Assembly (NCBI GenBank): GCA_944384265.1
Contig: CALWSR010000004.1
Coordinates: forward strand, 1 to 64,000
Direction of reading: 5' to 3'
Length of the DNA stretch: 64,000 nt
From: an uncultured Clostridia bacterium
Lineage (GTDB): Bacteria > Bacillota > Clostridia > Lachnospirales > Anaerotignaceae
Part shown: positions 4,230 to 39,138 of the stretch, piece by piece
How the letters are laid out: the number at the start of each line of letters is the position of its first letter
How positions within the stretch are numbered: position 1 is the stretch's first letter
Notes under the pieces: generated by a model
Told to the model about the DNA's origin: nothing
The model's input: the letters and a program-made list of their open reading frames with translations, nothing else
Database searches by the model: none
Translations under genes and position numbers: made by a program

Positions 4230-4440
4230 AACAAAACAAATTGTTTAAAATTCCTGAAATGTTCGACACTCCTGTCGTATTTGAACCTACATGACTTAAT
4301 CGGGATTCCTATATGCAAATGATATGTCAGGCCTCAACATAATTCCCTTTGGGCAGAGGAAGGCAGAGTCTTTGCTGCGGTTGCCCACCTGGCTTAGGCT
4401 AGGTGTCAAAAGACAGGGAACGGCATTTTGGGATTTTTAT
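4230..4440 (+). ncRNA. ssrS: 6S RNA
   Basis: The ends match the 6S RNA consensus: 5' CCTGAAATGTTCG near 4253 pairs with 3' CGGCATTTTGGGATTTTT near 4421-4438. The interior has the family's central-bubble architecture, with a ATTCCCTTTGGGC stretch near 4341 and GGTTGCCCACCTGG...AGGTGTCAAAAG near 4380-4412. 6S RNA mimics an open promoter, binds RNA polymerase holoenzyme and dampens sigma-A transcription in stationary phase. It has its own promoter and lies between a membrane protein gene and a terminator. Ends are approximate. Confidence 0.92.
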
Positions 4441-18605: not shown

Positions 18606-18703
18606 CACACCTATGGAACATACTACTGTCCCACAGATGTGCATTCATCTGCTGCCGAAAAACGGCCCGGCCCCATAAATCAAATAATTTATGGCCTGTT
18701 CAG
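18606..18703 (-). promoter_or_regulatory. NiCo (czcD-type) riboswitch with terminator
   Basis: Read on the minus strand from 18703, the leader has ACAGG (18699-18695) followed by stems CCATAAAT/ATTTATGG, GCCG/CGGC and CAGATG/CATCTG and then GGGACAG (18632-18626). The conserved ACAGG and GGGACAG flanking a four-way junction are the signature of the NiCo class. The 3' strand CACATCTGTGGGA can instead pair with TTCCATAGGTGTG, followed by seven T residues. That terminator uses the aptamer's conserved bases, so metal binding should allow read-through into the CDF gene. Confidence 0.85.
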
Positions 18704-18744
18704 TTTGTACTGTAAAATGCAGTGCAAAAATTCTACTATAATAT

Positions 18745-27390: not shown

Positions 27391-28476
27391 ATGGAAAAAA
27401 TATTTGTAAAAACACCTATGAAAACATATCCCATTGTATTTGAAGAGGATTTTTTGGCGTTGGCAGATATGGTTATACAGCAAAATCTTTCCGGAAGAAA
27501 AATGTGTATCCTAGCCGATAAAAATACAGCCGAGCTATATGGTCAGTCCGTGCTGAGCCAGCTGGAAAAAGTGGCGTCTGCTGTTTATTTTTATGATTTT
27601 CCGGCAGGAGAAATGTTTAAAAATTTAGAAAGCATATATCATTTTTATAGATTTTTTCAAGAAAATCATTTTGATAGAAAAACGGTTATTTTTGCACTGG
27701 GGGGAGGCGTTTGCGGAGATATGGCAGGCTTTGCGGCGGCCACTTATTTAAGAGGCATCCCCTTTGTACAAATCCCCACCACACTGCTTTCTCAGGTAGA
27801 CAGCAGTGTGGGAGGCAAAACAGGGGTGGATTTTAATGGAACAAAAAATAGCATTGGTGCTTTTTATCAGCCGGAGTTTGTATACATCAATACCAAAACA
27901 TTGGAAACACTCCCTGAAAGAGAATTTGCAGCAGGTATGGCAGAGGTGATAAAATACGGTTGTATTCTTTCAAATGCATTTTTTACATTTTTGAAGGAGA
28001 AAAAAGAGGATATTAAAAATATGAATCACAGTGTGCTTTGTGAAATGATTCGGCAATGCTGCTTGTTTAAAGCAGATGTGGTTTCAAAGGATGAAAAAGA
28101 AAGCGGACTCAGAGAGATATTAAACTTTGGGCATACCATTGGCCATGGCATTGAAACAAAAATGGATTTTCAGCTGCTGCATGGAGAATGTGTGGCATTG
28201 GGTATGCTGGCCGTGTTGGAGCTGGGCAGAAACCGAAAGGATGTAACAAAGCAGCAGCTGGAAGAGGTAAAAAATTTGCTGCAATATTTCAAGCTGCCTC
28301 TTTTTGTAAAATATAACTCTGTAAAAGCAATTTATGAACAGCTGTTTTTGGACAAAAAAGTAAAAGAAAATAAAATAGGCTTTGTATTGCCAAAGGGGAT
28401 TGGTGAGGTTTATACAACAAGTAATGTGCAAAAGCAGGAAATACTCAATGCAATAGAATTTGTGGTGAAAGCATAA
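27391..28476 (+). CDS. aroB: 3-dehydroquinate synthase
   Basis: AroB converts DAHP to 3-dehydroquinate, the second step of the shikimate pathway, using NAD and a divalent metal. The 361-residue protein has FALGGGVCGDMAGFAAATYLRG (NAD site, at about residues 101-122), IPTTLLSQVDSSVGGKTGVD, and the metal ligands in AEVIKYGC, NFGHTIGHGIE and LLHGECVALGM. I chose ATG 27391 (RBS AAAGGAG). The stop overlaps the next start by one base, so aroB heads the lspA-rluD unit. Confidence 0.95.
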   Translation: MEKIFVKTPMKTYPIVFEEDFLALADMVIQQNLSGRKMCILADKNTAELYGQSVLSQLEKVASAVYFYDFPAGEMFKNLESIYHFYRFFQENHFDRKTVIFALGGGVCGDMAGFAAATYLRGIPFVQIPTTLLSQVDSSVGGKTGVDFNGTKNSIGAFYQPEFVYINTKTLETLPEREFAAGMAEVIKYGCILSNAFFTFLKEKKEDIKNMNHSVLCEMIRQCCLFKADVVSKDEKESGLREILNFGHTIGHGIETKMDFQLLHGECVALGMLAVLELGRNRKDVTKQQLEEVKNLLQYFKLPLFVKYNSVKAIYEQLFLDKKVKENKIGFVLPKGIGEVYTTSNVQKQEILNAIEFVVKA

Positions 28477-28979
28477 TGGAAAATAAAAAATGGAATCAAA
28501 TATATATTATCTCTTTTATAACAGCAATGCTTCTTATTGTACTGGACCAATGGACAAAATGGCAGGCACTGACAAAATTGAAGCCGGTAAAAACCATGGT
28601 GGTGATAGAAGGCTTTTTGGATTTTACGTTTGTAGAAAACAGAGGAGCAGCTTTTGGCATTCTCTCAGGACAAAGGTGGTTTTTTATACTGCTTACAGTG
28701 ATAGTGGTGTGCGGCATTTTTTATGGTTTTTTTCAATTTCCCAAAACAAAGCCATATTTGTTTTTGAGAGCAGGGTTTCTTTTGGTGCTTTCCGGTGCAG
28801 TGGGAAACGGAATAGACAGAGCATTGAGAGGATATGTGGTGGATTTTTTGGAAGTGACATTTATCAAATGGCCTGTTTTTAATTTAGCTGATATTTATGT
28901 GGTGGCAGGGGCTTTTATCATATTATTTTTAAGTCTTTTTGTCATCAAAGAAGAAGAGAAAAACAATCATAAGGAGTAG
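28476..28979 (+). CDS. lspA: Lipoprotein signal peptidase (signal peptidase II)
   Basis: LspA cleaves the signal peptide of diacylglyceryl-modified prolipoproteins before the +1 Cys. The 167-residue protein has four membrane helices and the family blocks IVLDQWTKW, FVENRGAAFGIL, SGAVGNGIDRALRGYVVDFL (catalytic Asp114) and FNLADIYVVAG (catalytic Asp139). Both catalytic residues are intact, unlike in the paralogue at 3695. The ATG overlaps the aroB stop. Confidence 0.96.
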   Translation: MENKKWNQIYIISFITAMLLIVLDQWTKWQALTKLKPVKTMVVIEGFLDFTFVENRGAAFGILSGQRWFFILLTVIVVCGIFYGFFQFPKTKPYLFLRAGFLLVLSGAVGNGIDRALRGYVVDFLEVTFIKWPVFNLADIYVVAGAFIILFLSLFVIKEEEKNNHKE

Positions 28980-28981
28980 GC

Positions 28982-29905
28982 ATGGAAGTTTTAACATGGG
29001 TGATAGAACAAGAGGATATAGGAAAAAGAATCGACATTTTTGTGGCAGAAGAAACGGAAGAGGGTATTTCAAGAAGCAGAGTGCAAAAAATGGCAGAGCA
29101 AGGGTATTTGAAGGTCCATGAAAGGGCTGTAAAATCCAATTATAAGCTGCGCAAAGGAGATATGGTATCATTTTGCATACCCCAGGCAACCCCTGTGGAA
29201 ATTGTGCCGGAAAATATGGATTTAGACATTGTATATGAGGATGAGGATGTCATTGTTGTCAACAAGCCTCAGGGAATGGTGGTGCATCCTGCACCGGGGC
29301 ATATGACAGGTACATTGGTCAATGGTCTTTTATACCACTGCAAAGGAAATCTTTCCGGCATCAATGGAGTGCAAAGGCCTGGCATTGTTCACAGAATTGA
29401 TAAGGATACATCAGGCATATTGATGGCTGCCAAAAACGACAAGGCCCATCAGTCTTTGGCAATGCAGCTGGCAGAGCATAGTATTGAAAGAAAATATCAT
29501 GCTGTTGTATTTCATAGGCTCAAGCAAGAAAGGGGAACCATCAGCGAACCCATTGGCAGAAATCCCAAAGACAGAAAAAAAATGGCTGTGACACAAAAAA
29601 ACAGCCGTCATGCCATCACCCATTACACTGTTTTGGAAGCACTGGGAAATTATACCTATATACAGGCTCAGCTGGAAACAGGAAGAACCCATCAGATTAG
29701 AGTGCATATGAGCTTTATAGGCCATCCCTTGCTGGGAGATATGGTATATGGCCCAAAAAAACAGCCTTTTTCATTGTCCGGTCAGGTGCTTCATGCAAAG
29801 GTGCTGGGATTTGTACATCCTGCCACAAAAAAATATATGGAATTTGAAGTGCCTTTGCCCCAATATTTTATAAAATTGCTTGAAAAATTGAGAATGGGTA
29901 TGTAA
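28982..29905 (+). CDS. rluD: RluA/RluD-family pseudouridine synthase
   Basis: The 307-residue enzyme modifies uridines in 23S rRNA helix regions (RluD-type; B. subtilis YlyB is the syntenic homologue). It has an N-terminal S4 domain (SRSRVQKMAEQGYLKV...), then the catalytic domain with the motif HRIDKDTSGILM (catalytic Asp) and ETGRTHQIRVHMSFIGHPLLGD. Three bases separate it from lspA; the order lspA-rluD-pyr genes is conserved in Firmicutes. The exact target uridine cannot be told. Confidence 0.9.
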   Translation: MEVLTWVIEQEDIGKRIDIFVAEETEEGISRSRVQKMAEQGYLKVHERAVKSNYKLRKGDMVSFCIPQATPVEIVPENMDLDIVYEDEDVIVVNKPQGMVVHPAPGHMTGTLVNGLLYHCKGNLSGINGVQRPGIVHRIDKDTSGILMAAKNDKAHQSLAMQLAEHSIERKYHAVVFHRLKQERGTISEPIGRNPKDRKKMAVTQKNSRHAITHYTVLEALGNYTYIQAQLETGRTHQIRVHMSFIGHPLLGDMVYGPKKQPFSLSGQVLHAKVLGFVHPATKKYMEFEVPLPQYFIKLLEKLRMGM

Positions 29906-29947
29906 AAGCCGATGCAGACTGCATTTTGGGCAGATAGGAGGGAATAT

Positions 29948-30874
29948 ATGGTTTTTCGGAAAAAAGATTTTTTTGGTATGAGAGATTTGATGGCAGAAGA
30001 AATCCGCTATATATTAAGCACAGCAGAAACCATGAAATATATATTAAATCAAAAAAATAAAAAATCCCCTCATTTGCAGGGAAAGTCTGTGATAATACTA
30101 TTTTATGAGCCAAGTGCCAGAACAAAGCTTTCCTATGAGCTGGCGGCACAGCATTTGAGTGCCAATGTGGTGGATATGACTGTTACGGCAGACGCCTACC
30201 AGGAAAAATTGCAGGACATGGGTCAGCTTGTGGACCAAACAGGAGCAGATTTTATTATACTCAGACATCCCATGGCAGGGGCGGTCAGAATATTGGCAGA
30301 AAATGTAAATGCATCGGTCATCAATGCGGGAGATGGCTTTAATGAAAACCCCGGCCAATCCTTGTTGGATTTGATGACCATTAAAGAGCAAAAGGGAAGC
30401 TTTGAAGGGCTGAGAGTGGCCATTATAGGAGATTTGATACACAGCCGTGTTTGCAAAAGCAATATATGGGCATTGACAAAGCTGGGAGCAGAGGTATGTG
30501 TATCCGGTCCTCCCACACTGCTGCCGCCAAACATTGAAAAATTTGGCGTAGATGTTTATTATGACGCCAGAAAAGCAGTGCAGGGAGCAGACGTTATATT
30601 GACCAGCAGAATGAAGGCAGAAACACAAAACAAAAATCTTGTGCCTTCTTTGACGGAATATAAGCATTTTTTCAGAGTAGATGAAAATTTGCTGCGCCAT
30701 GCAAAGGAGGACACCATTGTCATGCATCCCGGCCCCATACAAAGAGGGATAGAAATTTCTTCTGATGTGATAGATGGAAAGCAGTGTATCATAAATGACC
30801 AAATTGCAAACAGTGTGGCAGTGCGTATGGCAATGCTTTATATTTTGTCACAGATAGGAGGCGGTCTGAAATGA
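29948..30874 (+). CDS. pyrB: Aspartate carbamoyltransferase homologue with altered active site
   Basis: The 308-residue protein is syntenic with pyrB and keeps the fold blocks NAGDG, GQSLLDLMTI, GDLIHSRV and MHPGPIQRGIEI. Key ATCase residues differ. The carbamoyl-phosphate motif STRTR reads SARTK (56-60). The loop with essential Lys84 (xKGE) reads TADAYQEK, with Tyr84 where Lys is expected. The RHPxEG Gln site reads RHPMAG, and the RxQxER motif reads RMKAET (221-226). ATG 29948 (AGGAGGG) is chosen. It overlaps pyrC by four bases. It may be a pseudoenzyme or act on another substrate. Confidence 0.8.
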   Translation: MVFRKKDFFGMRDLMAEEIRYILSTAETMKYILNQKNKKSPHLQGKSVIILFYEPSARTKLSYELAAQHLSANVVDMTVTADAYQEKLQDMGQLVDQTGADFIILRHPMAGAVRILAENVNASVINAGDGFNENPGQSLLDLMTIKEQKGSFEGLRVAIIGDLIHSRVCKSNIWALTKLGAEVCVSGPPTLLPPNIEKFGVDVYYDARKAVQGADVILTSRMKAETQNKNLVPSLTEYKHFFRVDENLLRHAKEDTIVMHPGPIQRGIEISSDVIDGKQCIINDQIANSVAVRMAMLYILSQIGGGLK

Positions 30875-32142
30875 AAAGCATTATCAAAAACGGAAAAGTG
30901 ATTGCAAAGGATTTTTCTGCTGAAAAATATTTGGATATTTATATCAAAAATGGTGTGATTTGTAAAATTGGAGAAAATCTGGAGGAGGAAGGGGCAGAAA
31001 TATTCAATGCAGAAGGAAAATACATATTGCCGGGATTTATTGATATGCACTGCAATATCTGCGACCCAGGCTATGAATATATAGAAGACATTGAAACAGC
31101 TTCCTGCAGTGCTGCAAAGGGAGGCTTTACAAGCATCACCTGTGAGCCAAATACAAACCCTGCCATTGACAATAAAACCGTTGTGGAATACATTGTTTCC
31201 AAAAGCAAAGAATATTCTCTTGTGCATATTTATCCCTATGGCAGTATGTCCGTAGGGTGCTTGGGAGAGCATATGGCAGAAATTGGAGAAATGCATCAGG
31301 CAGGCATTGTAGGAATTGCAGACGGTGGCTTTTCTGTGAAAAATGCCTCTTTTTTGGCAAATGTATTTCGTTATTCCAAAATGTTTGATATGCCTGTTAT
31401 CACCCATTGTGAGGACAAAAGCCTGGCCGGCAAGGGCGTTATGAACGAAGGCTATGTTGCCGCCGGTTTAGGCTTGTCCGGCATTCCAAAGGAGGCGGAG
31501 GAGGTGATTGTGGCAAGAAACATTATACTGGCAGAAGGCATAGGGGCAAAGCTGCACATTGCCACTGTCACCACAAAGGGCTCTGTACAGTTGATTCGGG
31601 AAGCCAAAAAAAGAGGAACACAGATTACCTGTGAAACCAGCCCTCATTATTTTATGCTCACAGAGCAGGCGGTGGGAGATTACAACACATTGGCAAAGGT
31701 CAAGCCCCCTTTGCGTACCCAGGAGGATGTGGAGGCAGTGCTGGAGGGGATTATGGATGGCACCATTGATGTGATTACATCAGGACACAGACCCACAAAG
31801 CTGACAGATAAAAATAAAGAGTTTGATAATGCAGACTATGGTATTTCTGCCTTTGAGACAGCATTTCCATTAAGCTTTACAAAGCTGGTGCAGGAGGAAA
31901 ATGTGACACTGCAAAAATTGACAGAGCTTTTTTCTTCTAAGCCTGCGCAAATATTGGGCTTGCATAAAAAAGGGCAGATTGCCGAAGGTATGGATGGGGA
32001 TTTGGTCATTGTGGATTTGCAGGAGGAATATCAAATCAATCCCCAGGCATTTGTATCAAAGGCAAAATTTTCTCCCTTTGCAGGAAAAAAAGTGAAGGGA
32101 AAAATCATTGGTACCATTGTAGGCGGCAGAATATTGATATGA
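30871..32142 (+). CDS. pyrC: Dihydroorotase-like amidohydrolase lacking metal ligands
   Basis: The 423-residue protein aligns along its length with type I dihydroorotase (PyrC), which closes carbamoyl-aspartate to dihydroorotate with two zinc ions. Yet most ligands are lost. The HxH motif is HCN (60-62). The DDG bridge region is ADGG (150-153). HVST is TVTT (232-235). The catalytic Asp in TDHAPH is replaced (SGHRPT, Gly305). Only the HCED His179 remains. The frame is undamaged, so a non-catalytic role, for example as structural partner of the PyrB homologue, is likely. Inactive PyrC partners of ATCase are known in other bacteria. Confidence 0.82.
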   Translation: MKSIIKNGKVIAKDFSAEKYLDIYIKNGVICKIGENLEEEGAEIFNAEGKYILPGFIDMHCNICDPGYEYIEDIETASCSAAKGGFTSITCEPNTNPAIDNKTVVEYIVSKSKEYSLVHIYPYGSMSVGCLGEHMAEIGEMHQAGIVGIADGGFSVKNASFLANVFRYSKMFDMPVITHCEDKSLAGKGVMNEGYVAAGLGLSGIPKEAEEVIVARNIILAEGIGAKLHIATVTTKGSVQLIREAKKRGTQITCETSPHYFMLTEQAVGDYNTLAKVKPPLRTQEDVEAVLEGIMDGTIDVITSGHRPTKLTDKNKEFDNADYGISAFETAFPLSFTKLVQEENVTLQKLTELFSSKPAQILGLHKKGQIAEGMDGDLVIVDLQEEYQINPQAFVSKAKFSPFAGKKVKGKIIGTIVGGRILI

Positions 32143-37280: not shown

Positions 37281-37910
37281 ATGACAACGTCTGAAAACCA
37301 ACAAAATACAGAGTATGCTTTTTTGGAAAAATGGAACCGGGGCGGATTTTTATCTCCTTTGTTATGGGGCTTGGTATGAAATATGGACATATGAAATAGC
37401 AGCAGGGGTGTTTTGTGCCTTTGTTTCCATACTGTTTTTGTCAGAAGCGTTTGCCGGCATTGGTTATGCTGGAGCCATATTGGCATTGCGGATTTATTTT
37501 GGAAAAAAAGGAACCATGTTGGCTTGGGAAAGAAAAAAATGGACAAGCAGAGAAAATTTTCTTTCCCGTCAAGAGATGTGGAAGCTTGTGGGAATATGTT
37601 TATTGGTGTTATCTTTGTTTTTACACAGCATTTTGATATACAACGCCATAGCAGAAAAAAGCAGGACGAAGGGTTACTGGAAGAAGCCATGACATCATGG
37701 GAATTTGAACATACTATTACAGGAGAATATGAAATCATATCCCCTTTTTACAGAACAGAAGTGTATAGGATTCCTGAAACAAAGATTTTGGGCGGATTTT
37801 TTTTGGTAGAGCAAAATGGTATGACATATACAGTGTGGATTAAGATAGGCAAAGACGTCAAAAAGACAATTACCATTGATAAAATGGAGGGGAATTATGA
37901 AGACGTTTAA
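37281..37910 (+). pseudogene. Frameshifted membrane protein with repeat module (copy 1)
   Basis: An ATG at 37281 (RBS AAGGAGAGA) opens FLEKWNRGGFLSPLLWGLV, then stops. Homology continues one frame over (YEIWTYEIAAGVFCAF...LFLHSILIYNAIAEK, two or three membrane helices), and then returns to the first frame for EEAMTSWEFEHTITGEYEI and GGFFLVEQNG. Two compensating shifts are needed to join the parts. The N-terminal part looks like a DUF2628-type membrane domain. The C-terminal module recurs in the next two genes. Either a pseudogene or sequencing errors in homopolymers. Confidence 0.6.
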
Positions 37911-38325
37911 GATATGGCTGTTTGCAGCAACTATTTTTTTGGTGATATGTTTGTTTTTACACAGTATACTGCTATGTGTTTCTATAGTAGAAAAAATACA
38001 AGATAGACGGCTGACAAGAGGTCCTGTTGAAATATCATGGGAATTTGAACACGTTTTTACAGAGGAAGATGAAAAACAATGGATGGAAGAAGCCATGGCG
38101 TCGTGGGAATTTGAACATACTATTACAGGAGAATATGAAATCATATCCCCTTTTTACAGAATGGAAACATATATAAGACAGATGACGCCTGAATTAAGGA
38201 TATGGGGCGGTTTTTTTCTGGTAGAATACAATGGTTTTATGTATTCTGTGCATATTCGGCTGGACAAAGACGGCGGCAAAGAAATAGAGATTGTAAACGA
38301 GGGGGAATACTATGGGAACACTTGA
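37897..38325 (+). CDS. Membrane-anchored protein with repeat module (copy 2)
   Basis: The 142-residue protein has one N-terminal membrane helix (IWLFAATIFLVICLFLHSILL) and a soluble module: EEAMASWEFEHTITGEYEI, SPFYRMETYIRQMTPEL, WGGFFLVEYNGFMYSVHIRL. I do not recognise the module. About 60 bp coding for it are nearly identical to copy 1, so duplication is recent. The ATG at 37897 has GGAGGGG upstream and overlaps the end of copy 1. This is the only copy that looks complete. Confidence 0.6.
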   Translation: MKTFKIWLFAATIFLVICLFLHSILLCVSIVEKIQDRRLTRGPVEISWEFEHVFTEEDEKQWMEEAMASWEFEHTITGEYEIISPFYRMETYIRQMTPELRIWGGFFLVEYNGFMYSVHIRLDKDGGKEIEIVNEGEYYGNT

Positions 38326-38647
38326 TATGTACAGAATTGCGGAAATTATTCTTTTTTGTGTGATACTTCTCATTACAAGAGGGATTAACATATATTTACA
38401 AAACAAAAACAACGACAGTGAGCCAAAACAGACTGCTGCAGAAGAAAATAATGAGAGTAAGCAAAAATATGTTTTTACAGAAGAAGACGACAGGAAGTTG
38501 ATGGAGGAAGGCATAGCGTCATCAGAATTTAAACGTGCTTTTATGTGGGATTATAATATTGTATCTCCTTTTTACAGAATGGAGATGTATATCAGAAAAA
38601 TGACACCTGAATTACAGCTTTGGGGCGGTGCTTTTATGGTAGAATAA
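38312..38647 (+). pseudogene. Membrane-anchored protein with repeat module (copy 3, C-terminally broken)
   Basis: The frame of 111 codons starts at ATG 38312 (GAGGGGG upstream), overlapping copy 2. It has one membrane helix (IILFCVILLITRGINIYL), a Gln/Glu/Asn-rich linker, and the module up to WGGAFMVE, where a TAA occurs. The same frame after two stops reads VYIVGVEIAEHGERKIK, matching the missing end of copy 2, so the gene was truncated by nonsense mutations. The shortened product could still be made. Confidence 0.55.
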
Positions 38648-39138
38648 AAGGAGTAGGTATACATAGTGGGTGTTGAGATAGCCGAACATGGTGAGAGAAA
38701 AATCAAAATGAAACCGAACGATTCAGAAATAAAAAATGGCAGAAAAAGCTTGACAATCCAAAACAATGTGATATGATACTTGTGATGAAAAAAGAATATG
38801 GTTTTGTTACATCGGAGGGTGTTTCATACGCTGGATAAGATGGTTGAATATACGACTGTTTTTCCGGCGTTTTTTTCATTAAAAAATACAATTTGATATG
38901 GAGGTGACTGTCAATGCTTTTGTAAAAAAAAAGAAGAATACAATCAATCTGTTGCAGGAAGCAATATTCAGGTATTGTTTATAGAAAAAAATGTTTTGCG
39001 GCCGCAGCAATGAAAAAGGAAACAGCAATATGCAAAGCAAATGGCAGCAAAGACAATTTAAAAAATGGGTTTTGATTCATAAAGCAATAGGCTGATATGA
39101 TAAGCAATAAAAACAACATGAGAAAGAGAGGAAAAAAT
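38648..39138. other. Gap holding the tail of the broken repeat-module gene
   Basis: The first ~100 bp are the decayed 3' end of copy 3. The rest up to the MATE gene shows no gene or clear RNA; a weak stem near 38830-38875 ends in a T run. Confidence 0.5.

Follow-up and report, generated by a model that had tools for sequence, protein, structure and literature searches.

The genes pyrB′ and pyrC′, which encode homologues of ATCase (PyrB) and DHOase (PyrC), constitute what is strongly supported as an ancient, conserved double pseudoenzyme of single origin that is kept by selection. They lie in the window, i.e. the whole stretch of 64,000 nucleotides analysed here, from an uncultured bacterium of the Anaerotignaceae (Table 1). 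A retained pseudoenzyme pair had been proposed in a sequence-only reading of this DNA, and the proposal is now well supported by complete pyr copies elsewhere in the genome, by purifying selection and by the intact scaffold of the proteins. Many gut and sediment Clostridia hold such a second, dead pair, which probably has a regulatory or binding role. ATCase is a textbook allosteric enzyme, and a dead pair as constrained as the living ones points to a value of the scaffold beyond catalysis.

In the window sequence both frames are open and intact. Their undamaged state, their four-base overlap through a shared ATGA and their position behind lspA-rluD, all noted in the earlier reading, are borne out, and the same gene order is found in relatives. 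The gene overlap and the co-retention of the pair are consistent with a hetero-oligomer of class A, a dodecamer in which two trimers of ATCase combine with three dimers of DHOase.

Table 1. Features of the pyrB′–pyrC′ locus (window coordinates)
Feature	Position	Strand	Evidence or remark
RBS GGAGGG of pyrB′	29938..29943	+	sequence GGAGGGAATATATGG; homologues begin at the same residue
pyrB′, ATCase-fold pseudoenzyme, 308 aa	29948..30874	+	family score over cut-off, catalytic residues missing
SARTK, residues 56-60 (E. coli S52-T55 region)	30113..30127	+	S52, R54, T55 kept; T53 replaced by Ala
Shortened 80s loop AYQEKLQD, residues 83-90	30194..30217	+	S80, K84 lost
NENPGQ, residues 132-137	30341..30358	+	catalytic H134 replaced by Asn (57/58 in clade)
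RMKAET, residues 221-226 (RxQxER in ATCase)	30608..30625	+	Q231, R234 lost; R229 kept
ATGA stop/start overlap of pyrB′ and pyrC′, 4 bases	30871..30874	+	sequence
pyrC′, DHOase-fold pseudoenzyme, 423 aa	30871..32142	+	family score; 4/6 metal ligands lost; predicted fold
HCNICDPG, residues 60-67 (HxHLREPG in DHOase)	31048..31071	+	second His, Arg lost
SGHRPT, residues 304-309 (TDHAPH in DHOase)	31780..31797	+	metal-ligand/catalytic Asp lost
lspA + rluD, conserved upstream neighbours	28476..29905	+	mark the ancestral pyr locus

Scaffold and active sites of PyrB′ and PyrC′

PyrB′ exceeds the curated NCBIfam cut-offs of NF002032 (323.1 versus 263) and TIGR00670 (259.3 versus 236.95), and PyrC′ exceeds that of TIGR00857 (379.7 bits versus 279.05), so that pipelines relying on these models would annotate active enzymes. 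The two proteins are thus liable to wrong ATCase and DHOase calls, both in annotation and in metabolic models. The solved structures closest by sequence are ATCases for PyrB′ (B. subtilis, Aquifex) and DHOases for PyrC′ (B. anthracis, Aquifex). Predicted as single chains (monomers), PyrB′ has an ATCase-like fold (pLDDT 89) that matches 3r7l and 3d6n_B, and PyrC′ a fold (pLDDT 94) with a TM of 0.96 to the B. anthracis DHOase 4yiw. Alignment of the two proteins, already described as devoid of functional active sites, and these predicted folds reveal an intact scaffold and no obvious substitute for the lost residues.

In PyrB′ (E. coli numbering), alignment confirms SARTK for the STRT(R/K) of active ATCase, which had been read as a change from STRTR, and also Tyr at the position of K84, the 80s loop being shortened with the loss of both S80 and K84. 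The replacement of RxQxER by RMKAET holds for Q231 and R234, which are lost, but R229 and E233 remain. The most telling change, absent from the earlier reading, is NENPGQ for xEHPTQ. Among 58 distinct PyrB′ sequences, H134 is missing from every one (Asn in 57, Asp in 1), while R54 (57/58), R105 (57/58), Q137 (55/58) and R167 (58/58) are conserved at 95-100%, S52 is found in 48, and R229 or a Lys in 56. T53, T55, K84, S80, Q231 and R234 either vary or have disappeared, with S80 missing in 54/58 and the K84 position occupied by R, E, K, S, G or N depending on the lineage. Most of the clade has SxR(A/S), the window having SARTK. PyrB′ thus departs from the motifs that mark an ATCase, namely SxRT, HPxQ, S80/K84 of the neighbouring subunit and RxQxER, and the breaking of SxRT and HPxQ across the clade argues against ordinary carbamoyl transfer. 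The roles of the E. coli ATCase residues are also given in published transcarbamylase tables.

The losses in PyrB′ are enriched at ligand and catalytic columns (7/13 versus 9/59 other conserved columns, Fisher p 0.006), and overall variability equals that of active PyrB (column entropy of 1.21 versus 1.28). Asn134 is fixed and not drifting, and a few further residues are specific to the clade. The pair offers a natural split in which binding residues are kept and catalytic ones are lost.

PyrC′ was aligned with B. anthracis PyrC, in which we take H59, H61, D151, H178, H231 and D304 to be the six metal ligands of DHOase, as established in the literature. The claim that most of them are lost is upheld, since four of the six are gone in the window protein (N62, G152, T232 and G305) and two are kept (H60 and H179). 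For the HxH motif, said to have become HCN, it is the second His that is lost (N62); the first is still present (H60). The carboxylate-binding Arg (R63) has become Cys. In 61 distinct PyrC′ sequences, D151 never occurs (0/61) and D304 occurs in 16/61, H59 in 42/61, H178 in 40/61 and H231 in 37/61; the value of 0/61 for H61 holds by construction, the set having been picked by H61 loss. The metal site has been lost in varied ways, without uniform replacement. An intermediate state of loss is seen in the early-branching G041 (L031/L060), where the PyrC′ beside PyrB′ retains H61 within HCHLCEPG, with Cys at Arg63, and shows SDGD and TSH instead of DDG and TDH. The conserved Cys of the HC motif was considered as a new metal-binding or catalytic residue and rejected, HCHLRDPG being present already in active relatives.

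The residues missing from the two proteins are practically invariant in active ATCase and DHOase. The same losses recur among the distinct sequences of PyrB′ (58) and of PyrC′ (61), and so are not due to chance. Residual ATCase or DHOase activity, in which shifted residues would replace the lost ones, is very improbable. It could appeal to the early branches, which retain an RxQxER-like 240s loop and Arg or Lys at position 84, and to DHOase Asp304 where it persists (16/61), but it conflicts with the absence of D151 from all PyrC′ (0/61) and of H134 from all PyrB′ (0/58), with the missing S80 (54/58), and with the canonical ATCase that is almost always encoded elsewhere in the genome.

Active copies, distribution and descent of the pair

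Three carbamoyltransferases are encoded in the window genome: an ArgF-like protein on contig C40, PyrB′ itself and a PyrB on contig C10. The catalytically complete pyrB and pyrC anticipated elsewhere in the genome are those of C10, in a complete pyrB-pyrC-pyrF-pyrK-pyrD-pyrE operon. The motifs of its PyrB (STRTK, VKKGE, EHPTQ and RIQFER) and of its PyrC (HVHLREPG, SEDG, HCED, HMST and TDH) are intact. Given this full, normal operon, PyrB′-PyrC′ is an extra pair, and the idea that it provides the cell's only ATCase and DHOase was discarded.

A separate canonical ATCase is likewise found in 25/27 deep-lineage genomes with the pair; active PyrB proteins are 41-51% or about 32% identical to PyrB′, depending on their type. 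Two genomes with the pair, G159 and G067, yielded no canonical ATCase. In G159, another pyrC and pyrD are present, so that the missing pyrB may be an assembly gap. The reduced 1.5-Mb genome of G067, a probable auxotroph, yielded neither another ATCase nor pyrD, nor any convincing pyrE, yet it keeps the pair, which is therefore not invariably tied to de novo synthesis. The pyrC′ of G067 contains a short group II intron (L218, 5272-5958) and, this being the nature of the interruption, is not necessarily a broken gene. Among good genomes, pyrD is present in 63/64 that carry the pair and in 44/53 that lack it, an association whose Fisher p of 0.005 was computed on 61/62 instead of 63/64 and which is confounded by phylogeny.

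The distribution of PyrB′ was followed with a DNA pattern for N-A-G-D-G-x-[NH]-E-N-P, which active PyrB (E-H-P) is unable to match. The signature occurs in 81/295 sampled genomes of the order (partly MAGs), in 29/129 genera and 9 families, always as one copy; the reversed pattern, used as a control, gave no match. Named carriers include the cultured Clostridium sp. MD294/ASF356, Anaerotignum, a Tyzzerella sp., Defluviitaleaceae and Vallitalea. The pair is missing from several families of the order. PyrC′ adjoins PyrB′ wherever the contig extends far enough. The frames are intact in nearly all carrier genomes, and the agreement of independent genomes eliminates a sequencing or frameshift artefact as the source of the changes. 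Split genes at locus L073 look like errors, because neighbouring genes there are also split.

When 96 PyrB proteins were placed in a tree, the 38 pseudo sequences among them all grouped into a single clade (SH-aLRT 100) that requires 1 change versus 30 after shuffling and is placed next to active PyrB of clostridia. The hosts' own active PyrB proteins fall at two other places, one of the PyrBC type, which includes that of C10, and a second, distant type.

Selection was estimated within the genus by the Nei-Gojobori method. Between the window genome and its nearest relative, dN/dS is 0.008 for pyrB′ and 0.030 for pyrC′, while the active pair gives 0.024 and 0.053. For two further members of the genus, compared with each other, the values are 0.014 and 0.029 versus 0.048 and 0.078. 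Neighbouring genes give 0.04-0.18, so the pair (0.008-0.05) is at or below the active copies and most neighbours. In wider comparisons dS exceeds about 1.5, i.e. near saturation, and the ratios are rough. The comparison across relatives thus indicates strong purifying selection on the pair, and such low ratios are a strong argument against a decaying relic. Decay without function would accommodate the disappearance of catalytic residues from both proteins and the varied loss of the PyrC′ site; it is scarcely credible in view of these ratios, of frames intact nearly everywhere and of one copy per carrier in 9 families.

The gene order around the pair bears on its origin. Active clostridial relatives such as Caldicoprobacter carry a PyrR leader RNA and the order lspA-rluD-[about 195-aa gene]-pyrB-pyrC-pyrF-...-pyrK-pyrD. 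Deep pseudo lineages have lspA-rluD-pyrR-uraA-pyrB′-pyrC′, in which the PyrR and uracil-permease families were identified, and PyrR RNA sites lie near or upstream of the pyrR start in 4/6 tested loci, all below the Rfam gathering score. In the window lineage, pyrR and uraA are gone from the locus and smc-ftsY come next; no PyrR leader RNA reaches the Rfam gathering score before the window pair. The simplest history, as suggested by tree and synteny, would be one of staying in place with a single loss: the ancestral clostridial pyrB-pyrC of an lspA-rluD-pyrR-uraA-pyrB-pyrC locus would have been left where it was, its catalysis would have ceased once, and the old pair would have been retained while other ATCase and DHOase genes took over catalysis.

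Possible function and related systems

Between a non-catalytic binding role and a new carbamoyl or amidohydrolase reaction, the data point to the former. A non-catalytic regulatory double pseudoenzyme that binds UMP or carbamoyl phosphate is given an even chance of being the correct description. In this mechanism, PyrB′ would still form the ATCase trimer and PyrC′ the DHOase dimer, and both would assemble like the ATCase-DHOase complex of Aquifex. The anion pocket kept in PyrB′ (R54, R105, Q137, R167 and in most sequences R/K229, position 134 being Asn) would bind a phosphate-bearing ligand of the pyrimidine pathway, UMP or carbamoyl phosphate, without turnover, and its occupancy would alter some target, providing the regulatory output.

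A precedent for such binding exists in plant ATCase, where UMP in the active site touches the equivalents of R54, T55, R105, H134, R167 and R229, makes no contact to the side chains of S80, K84 and Q231, and is also in van der Waals contact with the neighbouring CP-loop (PMC7878868). This pattern is close to that of PyrB′, in which the arginines are kept and S80, K84 and Q231, which serve catalysis and aspartate, are dropped; the resemblance favours a non-catalytic complex binding UMP or carbamoyl phosphate. Counting against it, T55 and H134 are also contacts of UMP and carbamoyl phosphate and are changed in PyrB′, and the plant study notes that sharing these UMP-contacting elements does not make other ATCases bind UMP (PMC7878868). 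More tentatively, the whole two-enzyme complex may have become a new sensor of the pyrimidine pathway, i.e. a ligand-binding regulator that controls how pyrimidines are taken up or made or, in the window lineage, a process tied to the division genes next to it (smc-ftsY).

Accessory subunits are a rather unlikely alternative, in which PyrB′ and/or PyrC′ would co-assemble with active ATCase or DHOase and stabilize or regulate them, like Pseudomonas pDHO. Inactive PyrC partners required for ATCase activity are known (PMC7053772) and the pair occurs mostly in prototrophs, but the active ATCases belong to two unrelated lineages across hosts in which the pair is unchanged, making a dedicated partnership with one particular ATCase unlikely, and in G067 no other ATCase was found. 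Less likely still is a repurposed enzyme with a different reaction, in which another substrate would be bound by Asn134 together with the 80s and 240s loops in their remodelled form. The fixed Asn134 and the few other clade-specific residues speak for it, and ATCase paralogues have changed substrate before, as in ureidoglycine transcarbamylase (PMC4016543). Against it, every transcarbamylase in the published tables (PMC4016543), pseudo-ATCase groups 1-3 and ureidoglycine transcarbamylase among them, has SxRT and HPxQ, both broken in the PyrB′ clade, the 80s-loop residues differ between lineages, unlike a new catalytic site, the PyrC′ metal site is gone with no uniform replacement, and the adjoining genes are not catabolic. 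The regulatory pseudoenzyme and its rivals can be told apart by experiment, as the cultured Clostridium sp. MD294/ASF356 carries the pair.

Known systems resemble the pair in part. The class A1 ATCase-DHOase of Aquifex aeolicus (PDB 3d6n/4bjh) shares the PyrB and PyrC folds (TM of 0.87-0.92 between the PyrB′ model and 3d6n_B, and of 0.95 between the PyrC′ model and 3d6n_A), but both of its active sites are intact whereas both are lost here, where assembly of the pair is putative. Vertebrate CRMP/DPYSL proteins, which the PyrC′ model matches at a TM of about 0.84, are non-catalytic dihydropyrimidinase relatives and thus amidohydrolase-fold pseudoenzymes under selection; they are eukaryotic and have no ATCase-like partner. 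The Pseudomonas class A2 (PyrB-PyrC′) also pairs PyrB with a DHOase-like chain without metal site, but its ATCase chain is catalytically active and supplies the ATCase of the cell (PMC7053772). In the present pair PyrB′ has lost its active site as well and the cell relies on another ATCase, so that the competent ATCase chain of class A2 is lacking. Pseudo-ATCase groups 1-3 and ureidoglycine transcarbamylase are, similarly, ATCase-annotated paralogues beside genuine PyrB; they differ in keeping STRT and HPTQ, with RxQ replaced by a second-substrate motif of AIA/GX[SC]/VXP type, in their purine or hydantoin contexts and in comprising at least one active enzyme (Barba et al. 2013, PMC4016543). 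PyrB′ falls outside these groups, with NPxQ, SxR(A/S/T), RMK in the window and a PyrC′ partner. No description of a paired pseudo-ATCase and pseudo-DHOase was found in the open-licence literature.

Other features of the window include a 6S RNA gene (4248-4438, + strand, 66.1 bits) and a NiCo (nickel/cobalt) riboswitch (18624-18713, - strand, 83.5 bits). At 37574-38649, a gene for a small, apparently membrane-anchored protein is repeated in tandem, in two to three diverged copies that are 70-91% identical and spaced about 410 bases apart.
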